From Arboricoccus pini (GTDB lineage Bacteria > Pseudomonadota > Alphaproteobacteria > Geminicoccales > Geminicoccaceae), in assembly GCF_900187945.1 (NCBI RefSeq), contig NZ_FYEH01000005.1, positions 124,001-188,000 on the forward strand: DNA of 64,000 nucleotides, read 5' to 3'. A model generated the notes under the pieces. The model was given only the letters and a program-made list of their open reading frames with translations, did no database searches and was not told the DNA's origin. This document shows, one piece after another, positions 7,348-62,930 of this stretch. Position 1 is the first letter of the stretch, and each line of letters opens with the position of its first letter. The translations under genes and the position numbers were made by a program.

Positions 7348-7714
7348 ATACGTCGTCACGACAATCCGTGACGACGTAATGCTAATATGTATATAACTAC
7401 GTGTCTACGAAACGCCGAGAAAACGTCAGTACGTAATCACGTAGCTGCGGCGTCACTAAAATTGGACAACGTCATGTCATATGCACGACGATACGCAAAG
7501 ATGGCATTACGTACATTCGTGGTGAACAACAGTCGTAACAACGACAGTATGTAATCGCGCAAATGCGTAGTGACGTATAAGCGAATCTAATGGTCTGTCG
7601 CAGCTTGCATGCGATGTCTGGAGCATGTCTATTTACGTTACGTAACTACAACATTACGATTGCACGCGGCGCCGTATTGTTGTAACGCCGAATAAATTCA
7701 AGGGCGAGGTAGCG
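7348..7714. promoter_or_regulatory. Candidate centromere (parS) and parA promoter region
   Basis: This 367-base gap contains no gene. It is full of ACGTA/TACGT-core elements in otherwise GC-rich surroundings: 7349-7378 (perfect 12-base inverted repeat TACGTCGTCACG, spacer ACAATC), TACGTG at 7398, GTACGTAATCAC at 7429, CACGTAG at 7438, TTACGTAC at 7507, GACGTATAA at 7572 and GTTACGTAAC at 7637-7646. Type Ib partition systems usually carry repeated centromere sites just upstream of parA, which also serve as the operator. The density is seen; the centromere role is inferred. Confidence 0.65.
7349..7378. repeat. Perfect 12-base inverted repeat, TACGTCGTCACG arms
   Basis: Arms at 7349-7360 and 7367-7378 are perfectly complementary around a six-base spacer. 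It starts two bases after the NUDIX stop. No T-run follows on either strand, so a protein-binding site (partition or operator) is more likely than a terminator. Confidence 0.75.
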
Positions 7715-46391: not shown

Positions 46392-48137
46392 CTAGCCGAC
46401 CAGCTCTGGCAGGTCCGCGTGGAAATGGCGGCCGGCCTCTGTCTTGGCGATCACGCCCTTGCGGATGACGAAGTCGCCAAAGCGCTCCTTCTCGCCCCGC
46501 TCCTTGGCATAGGCCAGGAAGAGGGGCCGGAGCTCGGCGATGATCCGCTCATGCCGGATGTCGCGGCGATAGAGCTTGTTCAGCCGCGAGCCGTCGAAGG
46601 CAGCGCCCAGATAGAGATTATAGGTGCCAGGGCCGCGGCCGACGAGGCCGATCTCGGCCAGGTAGGGCCGCGCGCAGCCATTGGGACAGCCCGTCATGCG
46701 GATGACGATGTCGGCCTCGTCCAGCCCGGCCTCGCCCAGGGCCGTCTCCAGCTCGGTGACGAGATCGGGCAGGTAGCGCTCGCTCTCGGCCAGGGCCAGG
46801 CCGCAGGTCGGCAGGGCGACGCAGGCCATGGAATTGCGTCGGAGGCCGGAATAGCTCTCGGGCCCGATATGGTGGGCGGCAAGGAGTGCTTCGATCCCGG
46901 CCTTGTTCTCGGGCTTGACCCTGGCGACGATGACATTCTGGTTGGCGGTGATGCGGAATTCGCCGTCATGCACCTTGGCGATCTCGCGCAGGCCCTTGAG
47001 GATCTGGCGCTCCTCGGTGTCCTTGATCCTGCCGCTCTCGATGAAGAGCGTATAGTGCCAGAGACCCTGATGGTCCTGGACCCAGCCGATCCGGTCGCCG
47101 GTGCTGTTGAAGCTGAAGGGCCGGGGCTTGCCCAGCTTGTAGCCGAGGCGCTTCTCGAGTTCGGCTCGAAACGCCTCCAGGCCCCTGGTCTCGATCGTGT
47201 ATTTCAGCCTGGCATGCTTGCGATTGGTGCGATCGCCCCAGTCGCGCTGCACGGTCACGATCTTCTCGGCGATGTCGGTCGCCTGCTCCGTCGTGCAAAA
47301 GCCCAGAACGTCGGCGGTGCGCGGGAAGGTCGCCTCGTCGCCATGCGTCATGCCCATGCCGCCGCCCACGGTGACGTTCCAGCCCGCAATGGCGCCCTTC
47401 TTGTCGAGCACGGCGATATAGCCCAGGTCGTGGGCGAAGATATCGACGTCATTGTCCGGCGGCACGGCCACGACCGTCTTGAACTTGCGCGGCAGGTAGG
47501 TCTTGCCATAGACGGGCTCGCTCTCCTCCGTCTCGGCCTCGCCGCCCGCCACCTTCTCGCCGTCGATCCAGATCTCGCGCCAGGCGCCGGTCTTGGGCAA
47601 AAGATGCTCGCTGATCGCGCGCGCCAGCTCGTAGGCGGCGTCATGGGCGGCCGAGAGATGCGGATTCGAGCTCGCCATGACGTTGCGGTTGACGTCGCCG
47701 CAGGCGGCGATCGTGTCGAGCGAGGCGCGGTCGATCGCCTGCATCGTCCGCTTCAGATTGTTCTTGATGACGCCGTGATACTGGAAGGTCTGGCGCGTCG
47801 TCGCCCTAAGCGTGCCGTTCGCGAAGGTCGTGGCGATCTCATCCAGCTTTAGCCATTGCTCGGGCGTGCAGACGCCAGCCGGCATGCGGATGCGGATCAT
47901 GAAGCTGTAGGCGGGCTCGAGCTTCTTCTTGGCCCGCTCGGCGCGGACGTCGCGATGATCTTGCTGGTAGAAGCCGTGGAACTTGCCGAGCTGCGTGTCG
48001 TCGTCGGCGATCGCGCCGGTGATCTGCCGCTCCAGGCTCTCCACGATCGTGCCGCGAAGATAGTTGCTCTTGTCCTTGATGTACTCGTTGGCGGCCAGCC
48101 CCGGCGGCGGGGTTTCCTGTGTCTTCTCGTCAGCCAT
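46392..48137 (-). CDS. cysI: Sulfite reductase hemoprotein (beta) subunit
   Basis: A 581-residue enzyme with siroheme and a [4Fe-4S] cluster that reduces sulfite to sulfide with electrons from CysJ. The two ferredoxin-like half-domains are recognisable (SFMIRIRMPAGVCTPEQWLK; RATTRQTFQYHGVIKNNLK). The cluster/siroheme ligands are in ALPTCGLALAES and MTGCPNGCARPY. VGGGMGMTHGDEATFPRTAD is a CysI signature. Length is normal. It lies 30 bases after cysJ and is the last gene of the cluster. Confidence 0.97.
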   Translation of the reverse strand: MADEKTQETPPPGLAANEYIKDKSNYLRGTIVESLERQITGAIADDDTQLGKFHGFYQQDHRDVRAERAKKKLEPAYSFMIRIRMPAGVCTPEQWLKLDEIATTFANGTLRATTRQTFQYHGVIKNNLKRTMQAIDRASLDTIAACGDVNRNVMASSNPHLSAAHDAAYELARAISEHLLPKTGAWREIWIDGEKVAGGEAETEESEPVYGKTYLPRKFKTVVAVPPDNDVDIFAHDLGYIAVLDKKGAIAGWNVTVGGGMGMTHGDEATFPRTADVLGFCTTEQATDIAEKIVTVQRDWGDRTNRKHARLKYTIETRGLEAFRAELEKRLGYKLGKPRPFSFNSTGDRIGWVQDHQGLWHYTLFIESGRIKDTEERQILKGLREIAKVHDGEFRITANQNVIVARVKPENKAGIEALLAAHHIGPESYSGLRRNSMACVALPTCGLALAESERYLPDLVTELETALGEAGLDEADIVIRMTGCPNGCARPYLAEIGLVGRGPGTYNLYLGAAFDGSRLNKLYRRDIRHERIIAELRPLFLAYAKERGEKERFGDFVIRKGVIAKTEAGRHFHADLPELVG

Positions 48138-48167: not shown

Positions 48168-49964
48168 TCAATAGACGTCGCGCTGGTAGCGCTTGGTGCG
48201 GTTCAGATCATCAAGATAGGCGCGCGCCTGGTCCGGGCTTTTCCGGCCTTCCTCGGCGATGATCCGCAAGAGCATGGCCTCGACGTCCTTGGCCATGCGC
48301 GTGGCATCGCCGCAGACATAGAAGGCCGCGCCCTCCTCGAGCCAGGCCCAAAGATCCCGCCTTGCTTCCCACATATGGTGCTGCACGTAGATCTTCTCGG
48401 GCTGGTCGCGCGAGAAGGCGGCATCGATGCGGGTCAGGACACCATCCTTCTCGAGCTGCTGCCATTCGAGCTGGTAGAGAAAATCATTGGTGAAGGTCTG
48501 GTCGCCGAAGAAGAGCCAGTTCCTGCCCTTGGCCTCCAGCGCCTGGCGCTGATGCAAAAAAGCCCTGAAGGGAGCCACGCCCGTGCCCGGGCCCACCATG
48601 ATGAGCGGCCGGTCATGGTCGGCCGGCAGGCGGAAATGCTTGTTGGGCTTCAAGAAGACCGGCAGCGTGCCGCCTTTCTTGCTGCGCTCGGCCATGTGGA
48701 TGGAGGCAACGCCCTTGCGCTCCAGCCCGTGGCTCTGCCAGCGGACGGCAGAGACCAGGAGATGCGCCTCGCCCGCATGCGCCAAGGGCGAGCTGGCGAT
48801 GGAATAGCTGCGCGGTGCGAGGGGTCGCAGCAGGCCCTGCAACTCGCCCGCTTCCAGCTTCGCATCGAAGGTCATGAACAGGTCGATGAGTTGCCGGTCG
48901 GCGATGAAGTCGCGCCAGCCATCGGCGGCCAGGAGCTCCGCCAGGGCCTTGTGCGGCTTGAGCTTCTGGTAAGCCTCCATGACGGGCCGCGAGAGCGTGG
49001 TGATGTCGAGTTCGCTTTCGAGGCGGGCTTCCAGGGCCGAATCACCCTTGAGGCCGGTCGCCTGGAGGATCGCCTCGACAAGGATCGGATCGTTCTTTGG
49101 CACCACGGCCAGGCTGTCGCCGGGCTCATAGGCCAGGCCGCTCTCGCCCAGATCGAGCTCGAGGTGGATCGTTTCCTTGGCCGACCAGCGGCCGTTCAGG
49201 TTGATATGCTCGATGATCTCGGCGTCATAGGGGTTCTTGGCCGTCCAGGTGGGGGCGTCCGCCAAGGGCTCCGTGCCGGCCCTTGCATCGAAGGGGATGA
49301 TCTCGGCGGAAGCGCCGGCATCGGCCGGTTTGAGCGCGTCCAGTGCCGTATCGGTCCAGCCATCCGCCAGGGCTTCGAAATCGAGGTCGCAATCGACCCT
49401 CTCGGCCACGCGCGTGGCACCCAGCTCGGCCAGACGGTCGTCGATCTTCTTTCCCGTCAGGCAGAAATCGACATAGGAGGAATCGCCCAGGGCCAGGACA
49501 CTAAAGCGCGTATTCTCGAACCTTGGCGCCCCGTCCTCGATGAGGGCCCGGTAGAAGGGCTCGGCCCGCTGAGGGGGATCCCCCTCGCCCCAGGTGGCGG
49601 CGATGACGAGGAGATTCCTGGCCGCTGCGATTTCGGCCGGCATGACATCGGCCATGTCGACGGCCTTGGGTTTGAAGCCACGTTTCTTGGCCAAAGCCTG
49701 GATCTTGAGGGCCAGCGCCTCCGAATTGCCCGATTCGGTCGCATAGAGGATCGTTAAGGGTTCAGCTGCACGCTTCTCGGTCGCCGGCGCCGGTGACGGT
49801 GCCGACGCGGCATTGCCGGTGGCGGCGGCATAGCCGGCGAGAAAACCGGCCAGCCACTGGCGCTGATCGGCCGTGGAGGTGCCCAAGATACGGTTCAAGG
49901 CCGCAATCTGCTCGCTCTCGAAGGGAGCCGTCTTGGGCAGCAGCGGGGCCGCTGAGTTGGACAT
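48168..49964 (-). CDS. cysJ: Sulfite reductase flavoprotein (alpha) subunit
   Basis: A 598-residue electron donor to CysI. Domains in order: FMN flavodoxin ([20 protein letters not shown]), FAD-binding reductase ([12 protein letters not shown]), NADPH binding ([37 protein letters not shown]), ending in the CysJ-type RYQRDVY. The N-terminal [20 protein letters not shown] is typical of CysJ. Upstream of cysI in the same direction and probably co-transcribed; separated from cysH by about 100 bases with a hairpin. Confidence 0.97.
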
Positions 49965-50063: not shown

Positions 50064-50804
50064 TCAGATCAGACAGCCTTCCTCGGAAGTCGGGCGCGGC
50101 CCTTCGGGCAACGGCAAGTGGATGCCACATTCGGTCTTGCCTCGCCCTGCCCAGCGGCCGGCACGCGGATCCTCGCCGGGTGCCACGGGGCGTGTGCAGG
50201 GGGCACAGCCGATCGAGGCATAGTTTCTGGCCACCAGCGGGTGGGCCGGCAGGTCATGCTCGAGGCGATAGGATTCCAGCGCCTCGACGGTCCAGTCTGC
50301 CAAAGGATTGATCTTGATCCGCCGCCCGTTCTCGTCGGGCTCGACGGTGCGCAATTTGCGGCGGAGGTCGTTTTGAAAGCGCTTCCTGCCCGTGATCCAG
50401 GCGGCGAAAGGATGGAGCGCCTCGTCCAGCGTCTCCACCTTCCTGATGTGGCAGCACATGTTGGGATCGTCCTGGTGCAGCCGGCCCTCGGGATCGAGGC
50501 GTGCCAGATAGCGCATGTCGGGTCTGGCATCCCGCACGTCCCGGAGGCCCAGCCTTGCCACGAGCTCGGCCTTGTAGGCGAGCGTGGCCGGGAAATGGAC
50601 GAGCGTATCCAGGAAAAGGACGGGTATGGCGGGGTTGGCCTTTGCCACCATGTGCAAAAGGACGACGCTCTCGGCTCCGAAGGAGGAGACCAGCGCCGTC
50701 CGGCCCTGCAGAGGGCCATGGACGACGAGCGCCTCGATCAGGGCTTGGCCGCTCAGATGACCGAAGGCGGCATCCAGGTTCTGGGGGGAAAGCCGGTCAC
50801 TCAT
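50064..50804 (-). CDS. cysH: Adenylyl-sulfate (APS/PAPS) reductase, iron-sulfur type
   Basis: A 246-residue protein that reduces activated sulfate to sulfite with thioredoxin. PP-loop core: TALVSSFGAESVVLLHMV. The cysteine pattern CC (in NMCCHIRKVETL), 82 residues later CXXC (in IGCAPCTRP) and the catalytic Cys in KTECGIHLP is that of [4Fe-4S] APS reductases; E. coli PAPS reductase lacks the cluster cysteines. The ATG at 50804 has GGAAAG before it; a GTG at 50816 would add four residues. It follows the MFS gene across a gap of about 500 bases. Confidence 0.95.
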   Translation of the reverse strand: MSDRLSPQNLDAAFGHLSGQALIEALVVHGPLQGRTALVSSFGAESVVLLHMVAKANPAIPVLFLDTLVHFPATLAYKAELVARLGLRDVRDARPDMRYLARLDPEGRLHQDDPNMCCHIRKVETLDEALHPFAAWITGRKRFQNDLRRKLRTVEPDENGRRIKINPLADWTVEALESYRLEHDLPAHPLVARNYASIGCAPCTRPVAPGEDPRAGRWAGRGKTECGIHLPLPEGPRPTSEEGCLI

Positions 50805-51333
50805 CGAGCTTTCCACCCCGGGGCAGGCGCCTCACCGCACACGCGCAACACCGACCGATCGCTAGGATGTCGGAGCGGGGGGCGATGATGACAATGGGGT
50901 TCAAGACCTGCCTCCAGGGCGACCGAGCCGGTCGCTCGTCCTAACAAAGACGGCAGTAAGAGCCCGCCGCCTCATGACAGTCCCGTATGTAGTACGTTTA
51001 AAAGAACATTCCAAGGGCGTAGAAAAGAATATAAACCAAGTAGAGTAGTGTATAATAGAACGCATCCAGCGCATGATGGCGCTGCAGCCTGGATATTGCG
51101 CGCGCATGCCCCTCATGCCCCCGTTGGGGCTGAGTCCAGGTTGAGACCGGCGCGGCGCTCAGTTTCTTTCCGCCGAGGGAACAGGCGTCGTCCGCTAGGG
51201 CATCCGGCAGACCGGACGGCCTGGCGTGTCAGGCGCTGAGCCTGCGCCTCAAGGCGAACCGGCCTGCCCTCAAGATGGACCGGTTCCTGGCCGAGAGGCG
51301 CGCCGCCCGAGATGGGTCCAGAGCCCGCCTGCT
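50805..51333. other. Gap between cysH and the MFS gene
   Basis: About 530 bases. The part next to cysH should hold its promoter. AT-rich patches lie near 50990-51060 (for example GTAGAGTAGTGTATAATAG). A short plus-strand frame near 51195-51336 has protein-like composition (ACQALSLRLKANRPALKMDR) but no recognisable family and no start site. Nothing else seen. Confidence 0.4.
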
Positions 51334-52641
51334 CTAATCCGCAGCTACTGATGCCCGCGAAGCGATCTGCAATTGGGGCCGGGCGAAGAAAAGAATGACG
51401 ATCCCGGCAATAAACGCCATCAGGGCGACGAAGACGAGGCCGGCGCCGAAACCGCCCGTCTGATCGCGGAGATAGCCAATGGCGTAGGGACCGAGGAACC
51501 CGCCCAGATTGCCCACCGAGTTGATGACGGCGATGCCGGCGGCACGGTCGGTATCGGCCAGGAATTCGCTGGGCAGCGGCCAGAAGCAGGGCTGGATGCT
51601 GTAGATCATGCCGCCGCCCATGATGAGACCGACGACCGACCAGAGCGAGGTGCCGAACCAGGCGGCGATCAGGACGCCCAGGGCAACCACGCAAAGCACG
51701 GCAAAGCCGTGGAAGCGGCGATCACCTGTGCGATCCACGCTGCGGCCGACCAGCACCATGGCGACGATCGCCACGACATAGGGGGTGGCGGCGACGAAGC
51801 CTGTGGTGAGCGTGCTGAAGCCCAGCCCCTTGACGATCTGCGGCATGAAGAAGCTGAGACCGTAGCTGGCGACGTTCTGGCCGAAATAGATGGCGATGAG
51901 CGCCCAGATCCGCCAGTCGACCAGGACCTTGGCAATGCCGAGATGGCCGTGCGCGCGCACGTGGTGATGTTCGGTCTCGAGCTCGCCTGCCAGCCAGTCT
52001 CGCTCGTCAGGTGTCAGAAAGTAGGCCTCCTTGGGGCCATCTGGGAGGATGCGCAGGACGACGAAGCCCAGAAGGATCGCCGGCACGGCCTCGACCAGAA
52101 AGAGCCATTGCCAGCCGACCAGGCCCAAAAAGCCGTGCATCTGCAAGAGGAGGGCCGAGATGGGGCTGCCGACCACGCTCGAGAGCGGCATGGCGATGGC
52201 GAAGAGCGCCACATAGCGCGCGCGGTAGCGGGCCGGGAACCAGTAGGTCAGATAGAGGATCATGCCGGGAAAGAAGCCGGCCTCGGCGATGCCCAGAAGA
52301 AAGCGCAGAACGATCAGGCTCCATGGACCCTGCACGAACATCATGGCGCCGGCGACGATGCCCCAGCTCACCATGATGCGGGCGATCCAAAAGCGCGCGC
52401 CGACCTTTTCCATGATGATGTTGGAGGGCACCTCGAAGAGCATGTAGCCCAGGAAGAAAATGCCAGCCGCCCAGCCGAAGACCGTGGCGCTGATCCCCAG
52501 ATCGGCATTCATGGTCAAGGCGGCAAAGCCGACATTGGTGCGGTCGACGTAAGCGACCAGGTAAAGCAGCCCCATGATGGGCAAAAGGCGCCAGGCGACC
52601 TTTCCCACGATGCGGTCACCATCGCTGCTGTGCAGTGTCAT
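51334..52641 (-). CDS. MFS transporter, anion:cation symporter (phthalate/tartrate-like) family
   Basis: A 435-residue inner membrane protein with about 12 TM segments. LLYLVAYVDRTNVGFAALTM and GWAAGIFFLGYMLFEVPSNI, then YLTYWFPARYRARYVALFAI, are typical of the ACS family that takes up organic anions. It is encoded between cysNC and cysH on the same strand, and no sulfate ABC permease or SulP gene is in the window. A role in importing sulfate or an organic sulfur anion is therefore plausible but inferred from position only. The start codon lies 14 bases after a 22-base palindrome that overlaps the ribosome-binding site. Confidence 0.87.
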   Translation of the reverse strand: MTLHSSDGDRIVGKVAWRLLPIMGLLYLVAYVDRTNVGFAALTMNADLGISATVFGWAAGIFFLGYMLFEVPSNIIMEKVGARFWIARIMVSWGIVAGAMMFVQGPWSLIVLRFLLGIAEAGFFPGMILYLTYWFPARYRARYVALFAIAMPLSSVVGSPISALLLQMHGFLGLVGWQWLFLVEAVPAILLGFVVLRILPDGPKEAYFLTPDERDWLAGELETEHHHVRAHGHLGIAKVLVDWRIWALIAIYFGQNVASYGLSFFMPQIVKGLGFSTLTTGFVAATPYVVAIVAMVLVGRSVDRTGDRRFHGFAVLCVVALGVLIAAWFGTSLWSVVGLIMGGGMIYSIQPCFWPLPSEFLADTDRAAGIAVINSVGNLGGFLGPYAIGYLRDQTGGFGAGLVFVALMAFIAGIVILFFARPQLQIASRASVAAD

Positions 52642-52654
52642 TGATTTAGCTCTC

Positions 52655-52676
52655 CCTTATTCTTCGAAGAATAAGG
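52655..52676. promoter_or_regulatory. Perfect 22-base palindrome at the MFS ribosome-binding site
   Basis: CCTTATTCTTC and GAAGAATAAGG meet at a central TTCGAA with no loop, perfect over 22 bases. On the minus strand the second arm runs into AAGGGAGAG, the likely Shine-Dalgarno of the MFS gene. It could be a repressor operator or an RNA hairpin that hides the ribosome-binding site. It is also downstream of cysNC's coding strand only in the sense of lying between the two genes. Confidence 0.6.
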
Positions 52677-52790
52677 CGAGTCTCAAAGACGGCAATGCAC
52701 TAACGCCCGCCTGGCGGCGCTCAGGTGGAAAGGCCGGGGATCGGGCCGCGAAGGCCAAGGATGGCCGCCGGGAGCCCCCGACGGCGGCCC

Positions 52791-54671
52791 TTAGGCCTTG
52801 AAAGCCTTGTCGACATAGGCGATCAGCCTGGCCAGGCATTCCTCGATCGACAACGAATCGGTGGGAACGACGAGCTCGGGCGTTTCGGGCGCCTCATAGG
52901 GGCTGGAAATGCCGGTGAACTCGGCGATCTCGCCCTTCCTCGCCCGGGCATAGAGGCCCTTGGGATCGCGGCTCTCGCAGGCCTCGAGCGAGGCCTTGAC
53001 GTAGATTTCGTGAAAGGCCTCGGGTGCTGCCGCCCGGGCGCGCTCGCGATCACTGCGATAGGGCGAGATGAAGCTCGAGATGACGAGGAAGCCCGCATCG
53101 GCGAAGAGTGCCGCAACCTCGCCCACGCGGCGGATATTCTCAGCCCGGTCCTCGGGCGAGAATCCCAGATTGGCGTTCAGCCCGGTCCGGACATTGTCGC
53201 CGTCCAGGACATAGGTCTGGTAGCCGCGGGTGAAGAGCTCGCGCTCGAGCTCCAGGGCCAGCGTCGACTTACCGGCACCCGAGAGGCCGGTGAACCAGAG
53301 AACGCCGCCTTTGTGGCCGTTGCGGGCAGCCCTGGCCGCATGCGGCACGGCGTGGCCCACGGCCGTGATGTTGGTCGAGCGGACGGTGATCAGGTTACGC
53401 TGGTCGGCATAGCCCTCCATCGAGACGAGACCGCCGCCAACGGGCAGATAATCCTCGATGAGGACGAAGCGGCCGGTGGCCGGACTTTTCTCGTATTCGT
53501 CCAGCGCCAGCATGCGCTTGGCGCGCAGCACGACCTCGCCTGCCCCGTTGCGCTCGATCCGGTCGGCCGTGACCGAGGCCAGCGTGTCGGTGTCGATCGC
53601 GCGCGTGATCGCCTCGACCGTGACCGGGCTTTCCAGGGTGCCGAGCTTGAGGCCGTAGGTCTTCCCGACCACGAGCGGGTTATGGCCCAGCCAGAAGAGC
53701 TTGGCCTTGAAGACCGCGCTCTCGATCGGCGCGTCCGCGACGTGGCTCATGACCTCGCCGCGTTCGACAAAGATCTGCTCGTCCAGGGTGACGCCGATGC
53801 TCTGGCCCGGTGTCGCCTCGCTCGGCTGGGCCGGCACATGCCAGGCCTCGATCGTCTTGATCCGCGCCGTCTTGTTGGAGGGTGAGAAGACCACCTCGTC
53901 GCCCAGTCGGAGCCTGCCCGATTCAATCCGGCCGGCGATGATGCGGCGGTGGTCGAACTTGTAGACGTCCTGAACGGGCAGGCGCAGCGGTCGGCCGGTC
54001 GGCACGTCGATCTTCTCGAACCGGTCCAGGGCCTCGATCACCGAGGGTCCCTGGTACCAGGGCATGGCATCGCTATGACTGACGATATTATCGCCTTCCC
54101 GCGCCGAGATCGGGATGATCGAGACGGGTTTGACGCCCAGTTCCTGGAGATAGGTGCGGTAAGCCTTGGCGACCTCGCCGAAGCGGTCGGCCGAATAGTC
54201 CACAAGGTCCATCTTGTTGACGAGGACTACGACCTGGCTGATGCCCAAAAGATTCAAGAGATAGCCATGCCGGCGGGACTGCTCCTGGACGCCCTCGTGC
54301 GCGTCGATCAAGAGGAGGGCCGCCTCCGAGGAGGCCGCCCCCGTGATCATGTTCTTGAGAAATTCCTTGTGGCCGGGCGCATCGATGATGACGTAGGGGC
54401 GTTTTTTCGTCCTGAAACGGATCTGGGTCGTGTCGATCGTAATGCCCTGGTCGCGCTCCGCCTGGATCGCGTCCATGAGGAAGGCCCACTCGAAGGGCAT
54501 GCCACGCCGTTCCGACATGGCCTTGATCGCCTCAAGCTTGCCCTCGGGCAGCGAGCCCGTGTCGTGCACCAGGCGGCCCACCAAGGTGGACTTGCCGTGG
54601 TCGACATGGCCGACGATGACGATCTTGAGCTGCGGCGCGTTAAGGGCGTCGTTCTCTGGGCTGGCGGTCAT
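52791..54671 (-). CDS. cysNC: Bifunctional sulfate adenylyltransferase subunit 1/APS kinase
   Basis: A 626-residue fusion. Residues about 1-435 are CysN, the GTPase that drives APS formation: G1 [17 protein letters not shown]3 [13 protein letters not shown]4 NKMDLVDY. About 440-626 are CysC, APS kinase: P-loop [20 protein letters not shown], then [20 protein letters not shown]. CysN-CysC fusion (NodQ-like) is common in alphaproteobacteria. The ATG at 54671 lies 16 bases after the cysD stop; the longer frame to 54725 overlaps cysD. It makes PAPS from sulfate with CysD. Confidence 0.97.
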
Positions 54672-54687
54672 GACGCGTATTTCTTCT

Positions 54688-55569
54688 TTAAAGATAGCCG
54701 GCGGCACGCAGCCGCTCGAAGGCATCTTCGGATTCGTGGTCCATCGCCCGGCCCGAGCGCTCGGGGATCCTGGTTGTCTCGAGCTCCTCGATGATCTCGT
54801 CCAGCGTCGCGGCGTTGCTCGAGATCGGGTTGGTGATGTCCTGGTCGCCCAAGGAGCGATAGCGCTTGCCGTTCTTGGAGAAATAGAGATCGATCAAGGG
54901 AATGTTCTCGCGCTTTGTGTAGCGCCAGATGTCGATCTCGGTCCAATGCAGGATCGGGTGGACCCTTACATGCACGTCCTTGGGAAAGCTCGTCATGTAC
55001 TGGTTCCAGAATTCCGGCGGCTGGTCCTTGAGATTCCAGCTATTGTCGGCACCGCGCGGACTGAAATAGCGTTCCTTGGCGCGGATCGCCTCTTCGTCGC
55101 GACGGATGCCGGCCACCAGGCCGTTGAAGCCGTGCTTCTTGACGGCCGCCTGCAGGCCCAGTGTCTTGCGCGCCGCCGAGCGCGAGGCTGGCGGCAGGGT
55201 CGGATCGGTGTCTTCCACCGGCGGGCAGAGCTCGCGAATAAAATTCAAGCCCCATTCCTTGGCGTAGCGATCACGGAACGCATACATCTCAGGAAACTTC
55301 TTCTCGGTATCGACATGCATCACCGGGAAGGGCACATGGCCAAAAAAGGCTTTCCTTGCCAACCACAGGACGACATTGCTGTCTTTGCCCAGCGACCAGA
55401 GAATGGCGATATTGTCGAGCTTCGCGAAAGCTTCCCTTAGAATATAGATGCTTTCCGCTTCGAGCTGATCGAGATGGTCCATGTACGCCAAGCCAGCGAT
55501 ATTGAGATGAGACACGCGCCTTGCGCGAGGAGCCGCATATCGGAGTCCCCTCTTGGCCTTGTCAACCAT
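54688..55569 (-). CDS. cysD: Sulfate adenylyltransferase subunit 2
   Basis: Forms APS from sulfate and ATP with CysN. The PP-loop motif is [37 protein letters not shown] is the usual CysD start region, and [40 protein letters not shown] and [20 protein letters not shown] follow. I chose the ATG at 55569 because TTAGGAAC lies just before it; an internal ATG at 55482 would match the E. coli N-terminus but has no ribosome-binding site. It heads the cys cluster; its AT-rich promoter lies in 55570-55730. Confidence 0.95.
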
Positions 55570-55634
55570 GCAGTTCCTAATTCCCACAAACTTAATGATA
55601 ATAAAATAATATAACAAATAAGGTTTGTAAAATT

Positions 55635-55736
55635 ATGAGAATTCCTGCCATGCGGCTATCCCGCCATCTGGAAGTCCTGGAGGAGGCCCCCTCCACCCAA
55701 GTGCGGGCTGCCGGCAGCTTCGAGGAGCTGGCATGA
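55635..55736 (+). CDS. Possible 33-residue leader ORF coupled to the next gene
   Basis: From the ATG at 55635 a 33-codon frame (MRIPAMRLSRHLEVLEEAPS...) ends in TGA at 55734-55736, overlapping the next gene's ATG (ATGA). AAGG lies about 10 bases upstream of its start. The arrangement suggests translational coupling, but the peptide matches nothing I know and could be chance. Confidence 0.35.
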   Translation: MRIPAMRLSRHLEVLEEAPSTQVRAAGSFEELA

Positions 55737-57774: not shown

Positions 57775-59238
57775 CTATTCTGCCGCCTGCGCGAAACCGG
57801 TGAGCCCCAGCCTTGCCGCCACGCCGGCGCCATAGGCAGGGTCGGCCTTGGCGAAATGGGCGATCTGCCGGCGCTTGATCTCCTCGGGAATGCTCGACAT
57901 GTGCTCGGCCAGATTGTCCATGAGCCGGCCCTGCTGCTCGGGCGTCATCAGGCGGAACAGGTTGCCGGGCTGCGTGTAGTCGTCATTGCCTTCCCGGTGG
58001 TTATAGCGGTCAGCATCGCCCGAGATGCGCAAAGGCGGCTCGCGATAGGACTGGTCCTCCTTGGCGCCGCCAAAGGAATTCGGCTCGTAATAGGCATCCT
58101 CGCTGCCGGTCTGGGCCGGGAAGAAGCGCATGGGGCCGTCCTTGTGGTAGTGATGAACGGCGACCTTGGGGGCGTTGACCGGCAGATGCTCGTAATGCGT
58201 GCCAAGGCGATAGCGATGCGCGTCGGCGTAGGAGAAGACGCGCGCCTGCAGCATCTTGTCGGGCGAGAAACCGATGCCCGGCACGATGTTGGAGGGTGAG
58301 AAAGCGACCTGCTCGATCTCGGCGAAATAATTCTCCGGATTGCGGTTCAGCTCGAGCACGCCGATGTCGATGGGCGGGTAATCCGCATGCGGCCACACCT
58401 TGGTGAGGTCGAAGGGATTATAGGGCGTCTTCTCGGCGTCCAGTTCCGGCATGATCTGGACCTGCACGGTCCATTTCGGAAAATCGCCCCGCTTGATCGC
58501 CTCGAAGAGGTCGAGTTGGGTGGATTCGCGATTGTCGCCGATCACCTTGGCGGCCTCGGCATTGGTCCAGTGCTTGTGGCCCTGCTGGGTCTTGAAGTGG
58601 AATTTCACCCAGTAGCGCTCGCCGGCATCGTTCCAGAGCGAGAAAGTGTGCGAGCCATAGCCATTGATGTTGCGCACGCCGACCGGCAGGCCACGATCGG
58701 AAAAGAGCGTGGTTACCTGATGGAGGCTCTCGGGCGAGAGCGACCAGAAATCCCACATGGCGGTGGGCTCGCGCATGTTGGTCTTGGGATGCCGCTTTTG
58801 CGTATGGATGAAATCTGGGAACTTGTAGGGATCGCGGATGAAGAAGACCGGTGTATTGTTGCCGACCAGATCCCAGTTGCCTTCGCTCGTATAGAATTTG
58901 AGCGCGAAGCCGCGCACGTCGCGCTCGGCATCGGCCGCGCCGAGCTCGCCCGCAACCGTCGAGAAGCGCGCGATCATCGGCGTCTCGGTGCCGGGCTGGA
59001 GCACCTTGGCCCGGGTGTATTTGGCAATGTCGCCCGTGATCTTGAGTGTGCCATAGGCGCCCCAACCCTTGGCGTGCACGGTCCGTTCGGGGATCCGCTC
59101 GCGGTTCTGGTGCGCCAGCTTCTCGATCAGCTGATAGTCCTGCAGCAGCACCGGCCCGCGCGGACCGGCGGTGATCGAGTTCTGGTTGTCGGCGACGGGT
59201 GCGCCTGCGGTCGTCGTCAGAATGGGTTTATCGGCCAC
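57775..59238 (-). CDS. katA: Monofunctional heme catalase (small-subunit, KatA)
   Basis: A 487-residue clade 3-type catalase. The distal His is in [12 protein letters not shown], the Asn in [14 protein letters not shown], and the proximal heme-binding Tyr is in [15 protein letters not shown]. The start is a GTG at 59238 with GGGGGAGAAAG just before it; the frame opens further upstream, but that part is Arg-rich, unlike catalases. It decomposes H2O2 in the cytosol. Divergent from oxyR with a palindrome between them, so OxyR regulation is very likely. Confidence 0.96.
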
Positions 59239-59384
59239 TGTCTTTCTCCCCCTTCGTCGATCGCGCGGGCCGGCCGCCGTGGCGGGCAGGCGATCTGACG
59301 AGGCTGCCACCGGCGATCACGGGCCGGCAGAAACGAGGATCGGCTTTAAAATGGTTCAGTTCCAATCGTATTGTCTTACCTTGG

Positions 59385-59403
59385 CGATAAGATAAACTTA
59401 TCG
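59385..59403. promoter_or_regulatory. Perfect palindrome in the katA-oxyR gap, likely OxyR operator
   Basis: CGATAAG-ATAAA-CTTATCG has 7-base perfect arms and ends 26 bases before the oxyR start. The core ATAAG-N5-CTTAT has the T-N11-A symmetry of LysR-type sites. It probably mediates oxyR autoregulation and katA activation. Confidence 0.75.
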
Positions 59404-59429
59404 AACTTCGCCTTTGGTCGGTTTCTTCC

Positions 59430-60317
59430 ATGCCTACGCTTCGTCAATTGGCTTATCTGGACGCGCTTGCCAGGCATCGCCATTTCGGCCGCGCCGCCGA
59501 TGCCGCCGCCGTCACCCAGCCCGCGCTCTCGATGCAGATCAAGGAACTCGAGGCCGAACTCGGTCTGACACTGGTCGAACGGCGCAATAAGGGTATTGGC
59601 CTGACGGCCGAGGGACGGGTCGTCGCCGCCCGGGCCGCCATCATTCTGCGCGATGTGCAGGACCTGGTGGACAGTGCGCGCGTGCAATCGGGCAAGGTGC
59701 TGACCGGTCCGCTCAGGCTGGGCGTCATTCCCTCGGTGGCCCCTTATCTCCTGCCCCGCCTCCTGCCGGCCTTGCAGCATCATTACCCGGCCTGCGCGCC
59801 GCTCGTGCGCGAGACCCAGACCCAGACCCTTCTGGAGGAATTGCAAAGGGGCGATCTCGACATCGTCATCGCCGCCCTGCCTTTGGGCGGCAGCGGCATC
59901 GAGACCCTCCCCCTCTTCGACGATCCCTTCCTCCTGGCAGCCCCGGTAGCCCGGGCCGACCTGCCGGCCCGGGCGAATGCGCAGATCCTCAATCAGGAAA
60001 CGATCCTCCTCCTGGAAGAAGGCCATTGCCTGCGTGACCAGACCCTCGACGTCTGTGCCGCGGGCGGCGGCGACGCGCGGATCGGCCCTTTCGGCGCCAC
60101 CAATCTGGCGACCCTGGCCTCCATGGTGGCCAATGGCTACGGCGTGACGCTCTTGCCGACCCTGGCGATCAAGGATCAGCCGGCCGATCCGCGCATCCGC
60201 CTCATCCCCTTCAAGGATCCGGCACCCTTTCGCACCATCGCCCTGGCCTGGCGACGACGGACTCCGCGCGAACGGGATTTTCGCGCCCTGGGCGCCCTGC
60301 TGAGCAAGACCGGATGA
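59430..60317 (+). CDS. oxyR: Hydrogen peroxide sensor OxyR (LysR family)
   Basis: A 295-residue LysR-type regulator. The N-terminal winged helix-turn-helix is TLRQLAYLDALARHRHFGRA and AAVTQPALSMQIKELEAELG. The effector domain has the two redox cysteines C200 and C209 in GHCLRDQTLDVC, corresponding to Cys199 and Cys208 of E. coli OxyR, which form a disulfide on H2O2 exposure. Divergent from katA. ATG start. Confidence 0.95.
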   Translation: MPTLRQLAYLDALARHRHFGRAADAAAVTQPALSMQIKELEAELGLTLVERRNKGIGLTAEGRVVAARAAIILRDVQDLVDSARVQSGKVLTGPLRLGVIPSVAPYLLPRLLPALQHHYPACAPLVRETQTQTLLEELQRGDLDIVIAALPLGGSGIETLPLFDDPFLLAAPVARADLPARANAQILNQETILLLEEGHCLRDQTLDVCAAGGGDARIGPFGATNLATLASMVANGYGVTLLPTLAIKDQPADPRIRLIPFKDPAPFRTIALAWRRRTPRERDFRALGALLSKTG

Positions 60318-60487: not shown

Positions 60488-60510
60488 CATGAATACGTTT
60501 TGTATTCATG
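60488..60510. promoter_or_regulatory. Palindrome upstream of gcd, candidate operator
   Basis: CATGAATAC-GTTTT-GTATTCATG, perfect 9-base arms, ends 23 bases before the gcd start in an AT-rich stretch. It is well placed for a repressor. Confidence 0.6.
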
Positions 60511-60533: not shown

Positions 60534-62930
60534 ATGGCGCATGGTGAAATTGTCGCAAAATATGCCAAATGGCGTATTTTTCTTCTCGTCATATTTGGAT
60601 TGTTGTTATTGGCGATCGGGCTTTGCCTGACCGTAGGGGGCGCCAAGCTCGCCTTTCTAGGCGGCAGTCCGTATTATGTTGTGATCGGCGTTCTCCTCGT
60701 TATCGCTGGCGCACTTGCAGTGCTCCGCCGATTTTGCGGTCTGCAACTTTATCTTGTTGCCTTCGTGCTGACCTTCCCCTGGGCTCTTTGGGAAGTCGGC
60801 TTCGACGGCTGGGCGCTGATCCCTCGTCTGGTCGGCCCCTTCATTCTTGCCGTCCTGGCGCTCTTGCTGCTGCCCTCGCGTTTTGCCGATGGCAGATCCA
60901 CGCGTCGCGGGCTGGGTGCCGGCCTGACGGCCTTGTTCCTCCTGATCCTCGTCGTCGGCGTGCCGCTCAGCCAATCCTCGCCCCAGCCCTTGCCGCTGCC
61001 GGGCGTCCAGGCGGGTAATGCCTATTTCGACGACCAGACCAAGCCGGCCGCGGCCGACTGGCCGGCATGGGGCGGCGGCGGCGGCCAGCGCTTCTCCGAT
61101 CTTGACCAGATCACGCCTGCCAATGTCGGCAGTCTGCAGCAGGCCTGGGTCTACCATACCGGCGACATCGGCAAGAATTACGGTGTCGAACTGACACCGC
61201 TCAAAATCGATGACACGATCTATGGCTGTACGGCGCTCCACGCGGCCTTCGCCCTCGATGCCTCGACGGGCCAGCAGAAATGGCGCTTCGATCCCAAGAC
61301 GCCGATCGAATATTCGGCACCCAACTCGGCCTGTCGCGGTGTTGCCTATTACCACCAGCCGGACGCGGCGGCCGATGCCGCCTGCGCCAACCGCATCGTC
61401 TGGGGCAGCTTGGATGCCAAGATCTATGCGGTCGATGCCAGGACCGGCGAACTCTGCGCCGGATTCGGTGACAAGGGCCATGTCGACCTGACCGACCACC
61501 TGGGTCCGACCGACCCCACGATGGTCTCCACCACCTCGGCGCCGACCATCGTGCATGGCGTCATCGTCACGAGCCAGCAGATCCGCGACGGTGAACGACG
61601 CCTGGCACCCTCGGGCGTCGTTCGCGGCTGGGACGCGGTCACGGGCAAGCTGCGCTTTGCCTGGGACATGAACCAGCCGGATATCACGACCTTGCCTCCC
61701 GAAGGCAAGACCTACTCGCCTGGCACGCCCGACATGTGGTCGACGGCGGTGGGCGACGAAGGCCTCGGGCTCGTCTATCTCCCCATGGCCAATCCAACGG
61801 GCGACTATCTGAGCTCGGGGCGGAGCGAGGCGGAGCGCACTTATGGCTCGTCGGTCACGGCACTCGATGTCGAGACGGGCAAACCGCGCTGGGTGCACCA
61901 GTTCGTCAAGAACGACGTCTGGGACTATGACACGCCAGCCCAGCCGAGCCTGGTGGAATTTCCCACCCCCTCGGGCAAGGTGCCGGCCCTCGTCCAGACC
62001 ACGAAGATGGGCGACATCTTCGTGCTCGACCGGCGCAATGGCCAGCTCTTGAGCAAGGTCGCGGAGACTCCGGTGCCGCAAGGGGGCGTGGAGCCCGGCG
62101 AGCGCTCGCCGACGCAGACACGCTCACTCTACAACGCGACCCAGCAGCCCGACATCACCGAAACCCGGATGTGGGGCATGTCGCCGATCGACCAGATGCT
62201 CTGCCGCATCCAGTTCCGCGAGGCCAGCTACCAGGGCATGTTCACCCCGCCCACCGCGGACAAACCCTACATCATGTCGCCCGGCAATAATGGCGGGTCG
62301 GACTGGGGCTCCTTGTCGGTCGACGTGCGCCGGGGCGTGATCGTCGCGAACTACAATATCTTTCCGACCTACGCGCAGCTCGTGCCGCGCGCCCAGGACG
62401 ACGCGATGGGCGTCTATTATCTGGGCGATCCGCGCAGCAAGATGCCGCGCCCGGGCTATAACCGCCCGGCGGCGGATCAGCCTTATGGGATCTCGCCTAA
62501 TCAAGGCTGGCTGATGCCGACGGGCATGCTTTGCACCCAGCCACCCTATGGGGGCATTCGAGCCATCGACCTTGCCACCGGCAAGACTCTTTGGGACCAC
62601 CCCTTCGGCACCGCGGAGCGCAACGGACCCTTTGGTATTCCCTCGCTCCTGCCGCTTACCATCGGTACGCCGAATAACGGCGGTGCGGTGACCACGGCCA
62701 GCGGCCTGATCTTCATCGCCACCACCACCGACGACCATCTCCGCGCGATCGACCTATCGACCGGCAAGACCGTCTGGTCGGTGGCTCTGCCGGCGGGCGG
62801 CCAGTCGGCCCCGATGCTCTACGAGCAAGGCGGCAAACAGTATGTCGTGATCATGGCCGGGGGCCATCACAGCATGCTCACCCCCGCAGGCGATGCTCTC
62901 ATCGCCTACGCTCTGCCGGGCAAGAGCTGA
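60534..62930 (+). CDS. gcd: Membrane-bound PQQ-dependent glucose dehydrogenase
   Basis: A 798-residue protein of the glucose/quinate/shikimate dehydrogenase family. Five N-terminal membrane helices (about 1-140, for example FLLVIFGLLLLAIGLCLTVG) anchor a periplasmic eight-bladed PQQ propeller. Propeller landmarks: WPAWGGGGGQRFSDLDQITP at its start, TPLKIDDTIYGCTALHAAFA, WDYDTPAQPSLVEF and the final KQYVVIMAGGHHSMLTPAGD. It oxidises an aldose or a polyol such as glucose to gluconolactone and passes electrons to ubiquinone. No PQQ genes are in the window. Length matches E. coli Gcd (796). Confidence 0.95.
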   Translation: MAHGEIVAKYAKWRIFLLVIFGLLLLAIGLCLTVGGAKLAFLGGSPYYVVIGVLLVIAGALAVLRRFCGLQLYLVAFVLTFPWALWEVGFDGWALIPRLVGPFILAVLALLLLPSRFADGRSTRRGLGAGLTALFLLILVVGVPLSQSSPQPLPLPGVQAGNAYFDDQTKPAAADWPAWGGGGGQRFSDLDQITPANVGSLQQAWVYHTGDIGKNYGVELTPLKIDDTIYGCTALHAAFALDASTGQQKWRFDPKTPIEYSAPNSACRGVAYYHQPDAAADAACANRIVWGSLDAKIYAVDARTGELCAGFGDKGHVDLTDHLGPTDPTMVSTTSAPTIVHGVIVTSQQIRDGERRLAPSGVVRGWDAVTGKLRFAWDMNQPDITTLPPEGKTYSPGTPDMWSTAVGDEGLGLVYLPMANPTGDYLSSGRSEAERTYGSSVTALDVETGKPRWVHQFVKNDVWDYDTPAQPSLVEFPTPSGKVPALVQTTKMGDIFVLDRRNGQLLSKVAETPVPQGGVEPGERSPTQTRSLYNATQQPDITETRMWGMSPIDQMLCRIQFREASYQGMFTPPTADKPYIMSPGNNGGSDWGSLSVDVRRGVIVANYNIFPTYAQLVPRAQDDAMGVYYLGDPRSKMPRPGYNRPAADQPYGISPNQGWLMPTGMLCTQPPYGGIRAIDLATGKTLWDHPFGTAERNGPFGIPSLLPLTIGTPNNGGAVTTASGLIFIATTTDDHLRAIDLSTGKTVWSVALPAGGQSAPMLYEQGGKQYVVIMAGGHHSMLTPAGDALIAYALPGKS

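Follow-up and report, generated by a model that had tools for sequence, protein, structure and literature searches.

A loop-free palindrome at the ribosome-binding site of an organic-acid transporter gene in the sulfate cluster of Arboricoccus pini: a putative operator

The palindrome upstream of the MFS transporter gene in the sulfate cluster of A. pini is a true yet isolated sequence feature, located before an ordinary organic-acid transporter gene. We consider it a putative operator of an unlinked repressor, overlapping both the promoter and the ribosome-binding site, and give this reading a probability of roughly 45%. The window, that is, the whole stretch of A. pini DNA analysed, is 64 kb long.

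Position and distribution of the palindrome

The palindrome CCTTATTCTTCGAAGAATAAGG occupies positions 52655-52676 and consists of 22 bases in two arms of 11 that are 100% complementary with 0 nt between them, giving an even-length dyad with the centre C/G. It is AT-rich (8 of its 22 bases counted as G or C) and lies in an intergenic gap of 64% G+C. Reading along the coding strand, GAGAGCTAAATCA comes next and then the ATG of the MFS gene, so that the palindrome spans -35 to -14 relative to the start, with 13 nt between its end and the ATG; position 52676, with which the sequence-only reading closed its range, is its far end. The probable ribosome-binding site GGGAG (52656-52652) begins inside the palindrome, whose last two bases are its first two G's. 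The earlier description of a perfect, loop-free palindrome that touches the Shine-Dalgarno sequence on the coding strand was thus borne out, with an overlap of two bases. A promoter scan of 50700-52900 found 1 pair against 0.4 expected, and this sole pair is a weak match with its -10 within the palindrome.

52655..52676, no strand: palindrome CCTTATTCTTCGAAGAATAAGG, loopless, centre C/G (inverted-repeat search and sequence)
52652..52656, minus strand: probable ribosome-binding site GGGAG, placed 10 nt upstream of the ATG (read from the sequence)
52659..52686, minus strand: weak promoter-like pair TTGAGA-16-AAGAAT, of which the second hexamer falls within the palindrome
51334..52641, minus strand: MFS transporter gene, SLC17 / DgoT- and TtuB-like organic-anion type, 435 aa, ATG start (ORF and profile matches)

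CCTTATTCTTCGAAGAATAAGG was the longest loopless palindrome of the 64-kb window and the only one with 11-bp arms, the runner-up having arms of 9 bp. A first-order Markov chain trained on the window was used to generate 60 random sequences of 64 kb. In these, loopless palindromes with arms of 11, 12 and 13 appeared at 0.033, 0.017 and 0.017 per sequence, amounting to 4 events with arms of at least 11 in the 60 sequences (~0.07 per sequence); base composition alone predicted 0.028 in 64 kb and 1.8 over the genome. About 0.03-0.07 such palindromes per window and about 2-4 per 4-Mb genome are expected by chance, and a second palindrome with 11-bp arms, GC-rich, was present at L168 in ~78 kb of other, partly overlapping A. 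pini DNA. When 32 gene starts picked by eye were compared for their best inverted repeat (gap 0-8, at most 60 nt upstream), the MFS gene had arms of 11 bp and the other 31 had arms of 3-9 bp. The palindrome stands out for where it lies rather than for its occurrence in the genome as a whole. Two further inverted repeats were seen in the window, one at 7349-7378 with 12-bp arms and a 6-nt loop, and CATGAATACGTTTTGTATTCATG at 60488-60510 with 9-bp arms and a 5-nt loop, whose end lies 23 nt upstream of a gene for a PQQ-dependent dehydrogenase (60534-62930).

The 18-base core of the palindrome had no second copy in the A. pini genome at up to 3 mismatches, and therefore neither a regulon nor an autoregulatory copy is indicated. 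A gapped search of the same genome for TTATTC-N0..14-GAATAA returned one other place only, with a spacing of 14, just before a frame matching a phage tail hub family. Across the class, the core was found at up to 2 mismatches in 19 of 385 genomes (A. pini included), whereas the reversed control was found in 29 of the 385 by a count made by eye. Literature containing the 12-mer core TTCTTCGAAGAA was, by title, on yeast, diatom and eukaryotic replication, and a literature search for palindromes over a Shine-Dalgarno sequence combined with MFS and repressor returned nothing.

We compared 90 homologous loci, made up of the best 80 of 394 loci in named genomes, 7 further loci that include 3 A. pini paralogues, and 3 plasmid loci selected among 541 records that matched. 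Upstream stretches of at least 150 nt each were compared for 88 of these, including the three plasmid loci (L025 and L027 were dropped as not being true upstream stretches); in this sample, drawn largely from the best 80 of 394, the closest match to the core had 5 of 18 positions mismatched. Conservation of the palindrome, which the sequence-only reading had suggested checking, was thus not found among these distant homologues, and because the nearest of them are only about 53% identical to the transporter at most, the absence says little about true orthologues; A. pini was the only genome of its genus among those searched for the transporter. Inverted repeats of unrelated sequence with 9-11-bp arms were present at 5 of the 88 homologues (L019, L031, L052, L053, L170), the longest being that of L031 (11-bp arms, 1-nt gap, GC-rich), and that of L053 falls inside the first codons. 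One of these five is at the Agrobacterium vitis homologue, an AT-rich loopless palindrome with 9-bp arms and a different sequence, 82 nt before the start and between a LysR gene and the transporter gene, which shows that such transporters can have upstream dyads of other sequence.

The transporter and its relatives

The assignment of the MFS protein to the organic-anion type, made in the sequence-only reading, is supported by profile matches, by alignment to DgoT and by its relatives. Its best NCBIfam matches were TIGR00893, which models D-galactonate transporters (316.7 bits, positions 1-398 of 399, under the curated cut-off of 395), and HpaX (311.4 bits, under the cut-off of 615.4), and Pfam MFS_1 matched with 187.5 bits, over its cut-off of 33.4. 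The best solved relative by sequence was the E. coli D-galactonate:H+ symporter DgoT (6e9n; E 3.8e-20), whose D46, R47, R126 and E133, four transmembrane charges with roles described in the retrieved text of PMC11649914, align with D33, R34, R113 and E120 of the A. pini protein. In the 90-row alignment (including the best 80 of 394 loci) R34, R113 and E120 were invariant and position 33 was D in 84 rows and N in 6. Because these DgoT-like charged residues are retained, the protein is very probably a proton-coupled organic-anion transporter. The comparison with DgoT, a distant relative, covered these charged residues.

A TtuB-type protein of A. vitis (WP_046802348.1, pRvVAR031b) belongs to the same MFS subfamily and showed 50.6% identity over 96% of the query. 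Its name was assigned from gene order, with which the ttuA-E genes as told in the retrieved text of PMC4811896 agree. The order on pRvVAR031b is LysR-MFS-tartrate dehydrogenase-glycerate kinase-pyruvate kinase, whereas the A. pini gene lies between cys genes, with cysNC and cysH as neighbours instead of the LysR, tartrate dehydrogenase and glycerate kinase genes of a ttu cluster, and in the trees its protein falls in a clade neighbouring that of the A. vitis protein. This closest clade (support 100/98) unites the A. pini protein with 8 rows, among them Methylobacterium and Bradyrhizobium; two of its loci, L003 and L008, have an isopropylmalate/tartrate-dehydrogenase type gene, and the other members have assorted genes. 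On another A. pini contig, a place at G000:C2:303-1376 (L174), near the contig end and with one TGA counted inside, shares 69% identity with the A. vitis enzyme tartrate dehydrogenase.

With A. vitis queries (E 1e-30), relatives of tartrate dehydrogenase were found at 13 of the 90 loci (including the best 80 of 394), a count in which not all need be tartrate dehydrogenase, as the query may also catch isopropylmalate-dehydrogenase-type relatives. Relatives of glycerate kinase and of the LysR gene were found at 6 and 10 of the same 90 loci, respectively, and the three plasmid loci contribute to each of the three counts. The majority of the 90 loci (again including the best 80 of 394) were without a tartrate-type neighbour. 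Some of the frames used in neighbour scans, such as those of the closest clade, were selected automatically for their length and could be antisense artefacts. The substrate is predicted to be an organic acid, possibly a tartrate-like hydroxy acid.

Among the 31 genomes of the family, which are also the 31 of the order, there was no other match to the transporter at 1e-110; at 1e-60, one other genome matched (G024, 39% identical). The MFS gene has a G+C content of 63%, with 84% at third positions, similar to the neighbouring genes, and therefore carries no compositional sign of recent arrival.

The surrounding sulfate cluster

The cluster has the order cysD-cysNC-MFS-cysH-cysJ-cysI, all on the minus strand, the cys genes having been recognised by ORF and profile.

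54688-55617, minus strand: cysD, given as an open frame, with the actual start probably lying inside it
52791-54725, minus strand: cysNC
52642..52790, minus strand: 149-bp gap from the cysNC stop to the transporter start, no terminator-like call inside on the minus strand
50817..51333, minus strand: 517-bp gap from the transporter stop to cysH, AT-rich stretch at ~50985-51060 by eye
50064-50816, minus strand: cysH
48168-49964, minus strand: cysJ
46392-48137, minus strand: cysI

The sequence-only reading had the transporter gene interrupting cysNC and cysH, which holds as a statement of position but is unsupported as history. Matches to cysNC and cysH were found in 21 and 18 of the 31 family genomes, respectively, A. 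pini being among both, and in 12 of the 12 other genomes having both (G002, G004, G010, G011, G012, G013, G014, G015, G017, G018, G020 and G024) the two genes were on different contigs, with a more distant cysNC (42-43%) in G004, G012 and G020 and with distant linkage still possible in several assemblies of hundreds of contigs. In the relatives, cysH was not seen in up to 1.5 kb after cysNC, a few stretches ending sooner. Before the A. pini cysH, one 67-aa frame (51134-51337) was scanned as a possible gene remnant and had no Pfam match, and the 517-bp gap leaves room for a separate cysH promoter. An old operon interrupted by the transporter is therefore unsupported by the arrangement in the relatives, and the most economical explanation is that in A. 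pini two separate sulfate units came to lie on either side of the transporter.

Other features were noted around the cluster. A GC-rich hairpin at 52752-52798, at and just past the cysNC stop, with an inner 9-bp stem, a 4-nt loop and an outer stem, has no terminator-like call and may end or stabilise the cysDNC message. Before cysD, a stretch at 55600-55680 that contains ACAAACCTTATTTGT at 55614-55628 is AT-rich by eye, and the corresponding stretches of family members look GC-rich by eye. Near the cluster, a catalase gene is divergent from a LysR gene (57775-60317), which we take to be an OxyR-like arrangement.

Candidate roles of the palindrome

The sequence-only reading proposed an operator or a regulatory RNA hairpin, and both are kept here as candidates. 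In the operator reading, the transporter gene would be a separately controlled unit between two sulfate operons, serving organic-acid uptake. A homodimeric repressor encoded elsewhere would bind the palindrome, and the bound repressor would lie across the start region with its -10 and reach the edge of the ribosome-binding site; the gene would be shut off until a ligand is present. Protein binding, the kind of protein, repression, a promoter of the gene's own and the substrate are each predicted here. Repressors of the MarR, TetR, ArsR and LacI types bind even-length dyads, and their dyad operators occur near ribosome-binding sites. The A. pini palindrome resembles such operators in being even in length, AT-rich and close to a start codon; it differs in that neither a regulator nor a second site was found. 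A dimeric DNA-binding protein is favoured because of the perfect centre, even length and AT-richness, and is suited because the centre is fully paired in DNA, with 11 symmetric base pairs per half, while only 9 of 11 pairs form in RNA. The transporter gene is 149 bp away from cysNC and 517 bp away from cysH, distances at which it could form an independent unit, and since two of the three A. pini paralogues adjoin a GntR/FCD or IclR regulator gene (L089, L088), local control appears usual for this transporter family. The dyad beside the LysR gene of the A. vitis homologue also counts for an operator. Against it, no regulator gene adjoins the transporter, and among the genes scanned or read within ~8 kb the only regulator was the LysR gene at 59430 beside the catalase gene. 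The uniqueness of the core in the genome and the lack of a like site upstream of the 88 homologues (a sample drawn largely from the best 80 of 394) also weigh against it, as do the weak promoter match, with whose -10 the transcript would start at about the ribosome-binding site, and the number of such palindromes expected per genome by chance.

The same expectation and the same 88 homologues favour a palindrome of no function, with the transporter expressed from cysDNC or without control, as do the fewer matches to the core than to its reversed control in the class and the unrelated repeats at or upstream of the starts of 5 of the 88 homologues. We regard this as less likely than an operator, although substantial. 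Speaking against chance are the AT-richness of the palindrome in a GC-rich genome, its distance of no more than 35 nt from a start codon and its arms, longer than those upstream of the 31 other starts. A further explanation, more doubtful still, is that an RNA hairpin over the ribosome-binding site lowers translation of the transporter, as fixed damping or as a switch, on a transcript that either continues from cysDNC or begins upstream of the palindrome. The hairpin would have a 9-bp stem, a UCGA loop and a stem base holding two G's of the ribosome-binding site, and on its own it folds with 9 of 11 pairs at -8.7 kcal/mol; the MFS gene is on the same strand as cysNC, 149 bp apart. In the three modelled transcripts with the whole palindrome, G52656 and G52655 were unpaired with a probability of 0.00-0.02, and the A and G of the AUG were mostly paired in the two longer ones. 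The fold z was -3.0 for 91 nt and -3.4 for 180 nt, but these low values are due at least partly to the palindrome itself. In the modelled transcript that lacked the greater part of the left arm, these two G's were still mostly paired (0.18 and 0.03 unpaired), G52654 was mostly open in all four transcripts and the AUG mostly open in the two shorter ones; thus, masking would be neither complete nor specific to the hairpin. No known cis-regulatory RNA was recognised in the window (0 Rfam matches at gathering score), and the genomes compared included no close relatives.

The sequence-only reading had proposed that the transporter may bring in a sulfur compound. Such import of sulfate or a sulfonate, co-regulated with the cys genes, now appears very improbable, the position among cys genes being the main point in its favour. 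LysR-type sites such as that of CysB follow T-N11-A, an odd-length dyad, and a LysR protein is unlikely because the parity here is even; a CysB site was rejected on this parity and on the lack of a close protein in the genome, where the best match of E. coli CysB is a LysR protein 28% identical, and a literature search found nothing tying CysB to TTATTC. The ATTC...GAAT of the palindrome resembles the SqrR site, which is ATTC-N8-GAAT in the retrieved text of PMC9774250, but its spacing is N6, on which an SqrR/BigR operator was rejected. No SqrR/BigR-like protein was recognised among three examined of the six HTH_5 places over the cut-off, namely an ArsR with a methyltransferase (L149), a short ArsR (L150, judged not to be SqrR by eye only) and a MarR (L151). 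In L149 (1456-2439), the ArsR-type HTH is fused to the methyltransferase domain, and the frame is directly before a gene resembling metF by eye. A sulfur regulon was rejected, as the genome has no other core copy. Genes of the cys type were found in 0 of 87 homologue loci (E 1e-15; including the best 80 of 394, plasmid loci excluded), with flanks of up to 6 kb for named-genome loci, less at contig ends, and at most 1.5 kb for the other 7, whereas the family and some neighbours (tartrate-dehydrogenase, glycerate-kinase and LysR genes) point to hydroxy acids. Least probable of all is that this one lineage-private palindrome is both repressor operator and ribosome-binding-site hairpin and thereby ties organic-acid import to the state of the sulfate genes, for example to supply carbon skeletons for cysteine synthesis.

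Together, these results caution that location within a sulfate cluster does not prove a sulfur transporter, and that a striking palindrome upstream of a single gene is not necessarily a conserved element. If the palindrome is an operator, it would mark one gene with readily testable control in an alphaproteobacterial family of few species.
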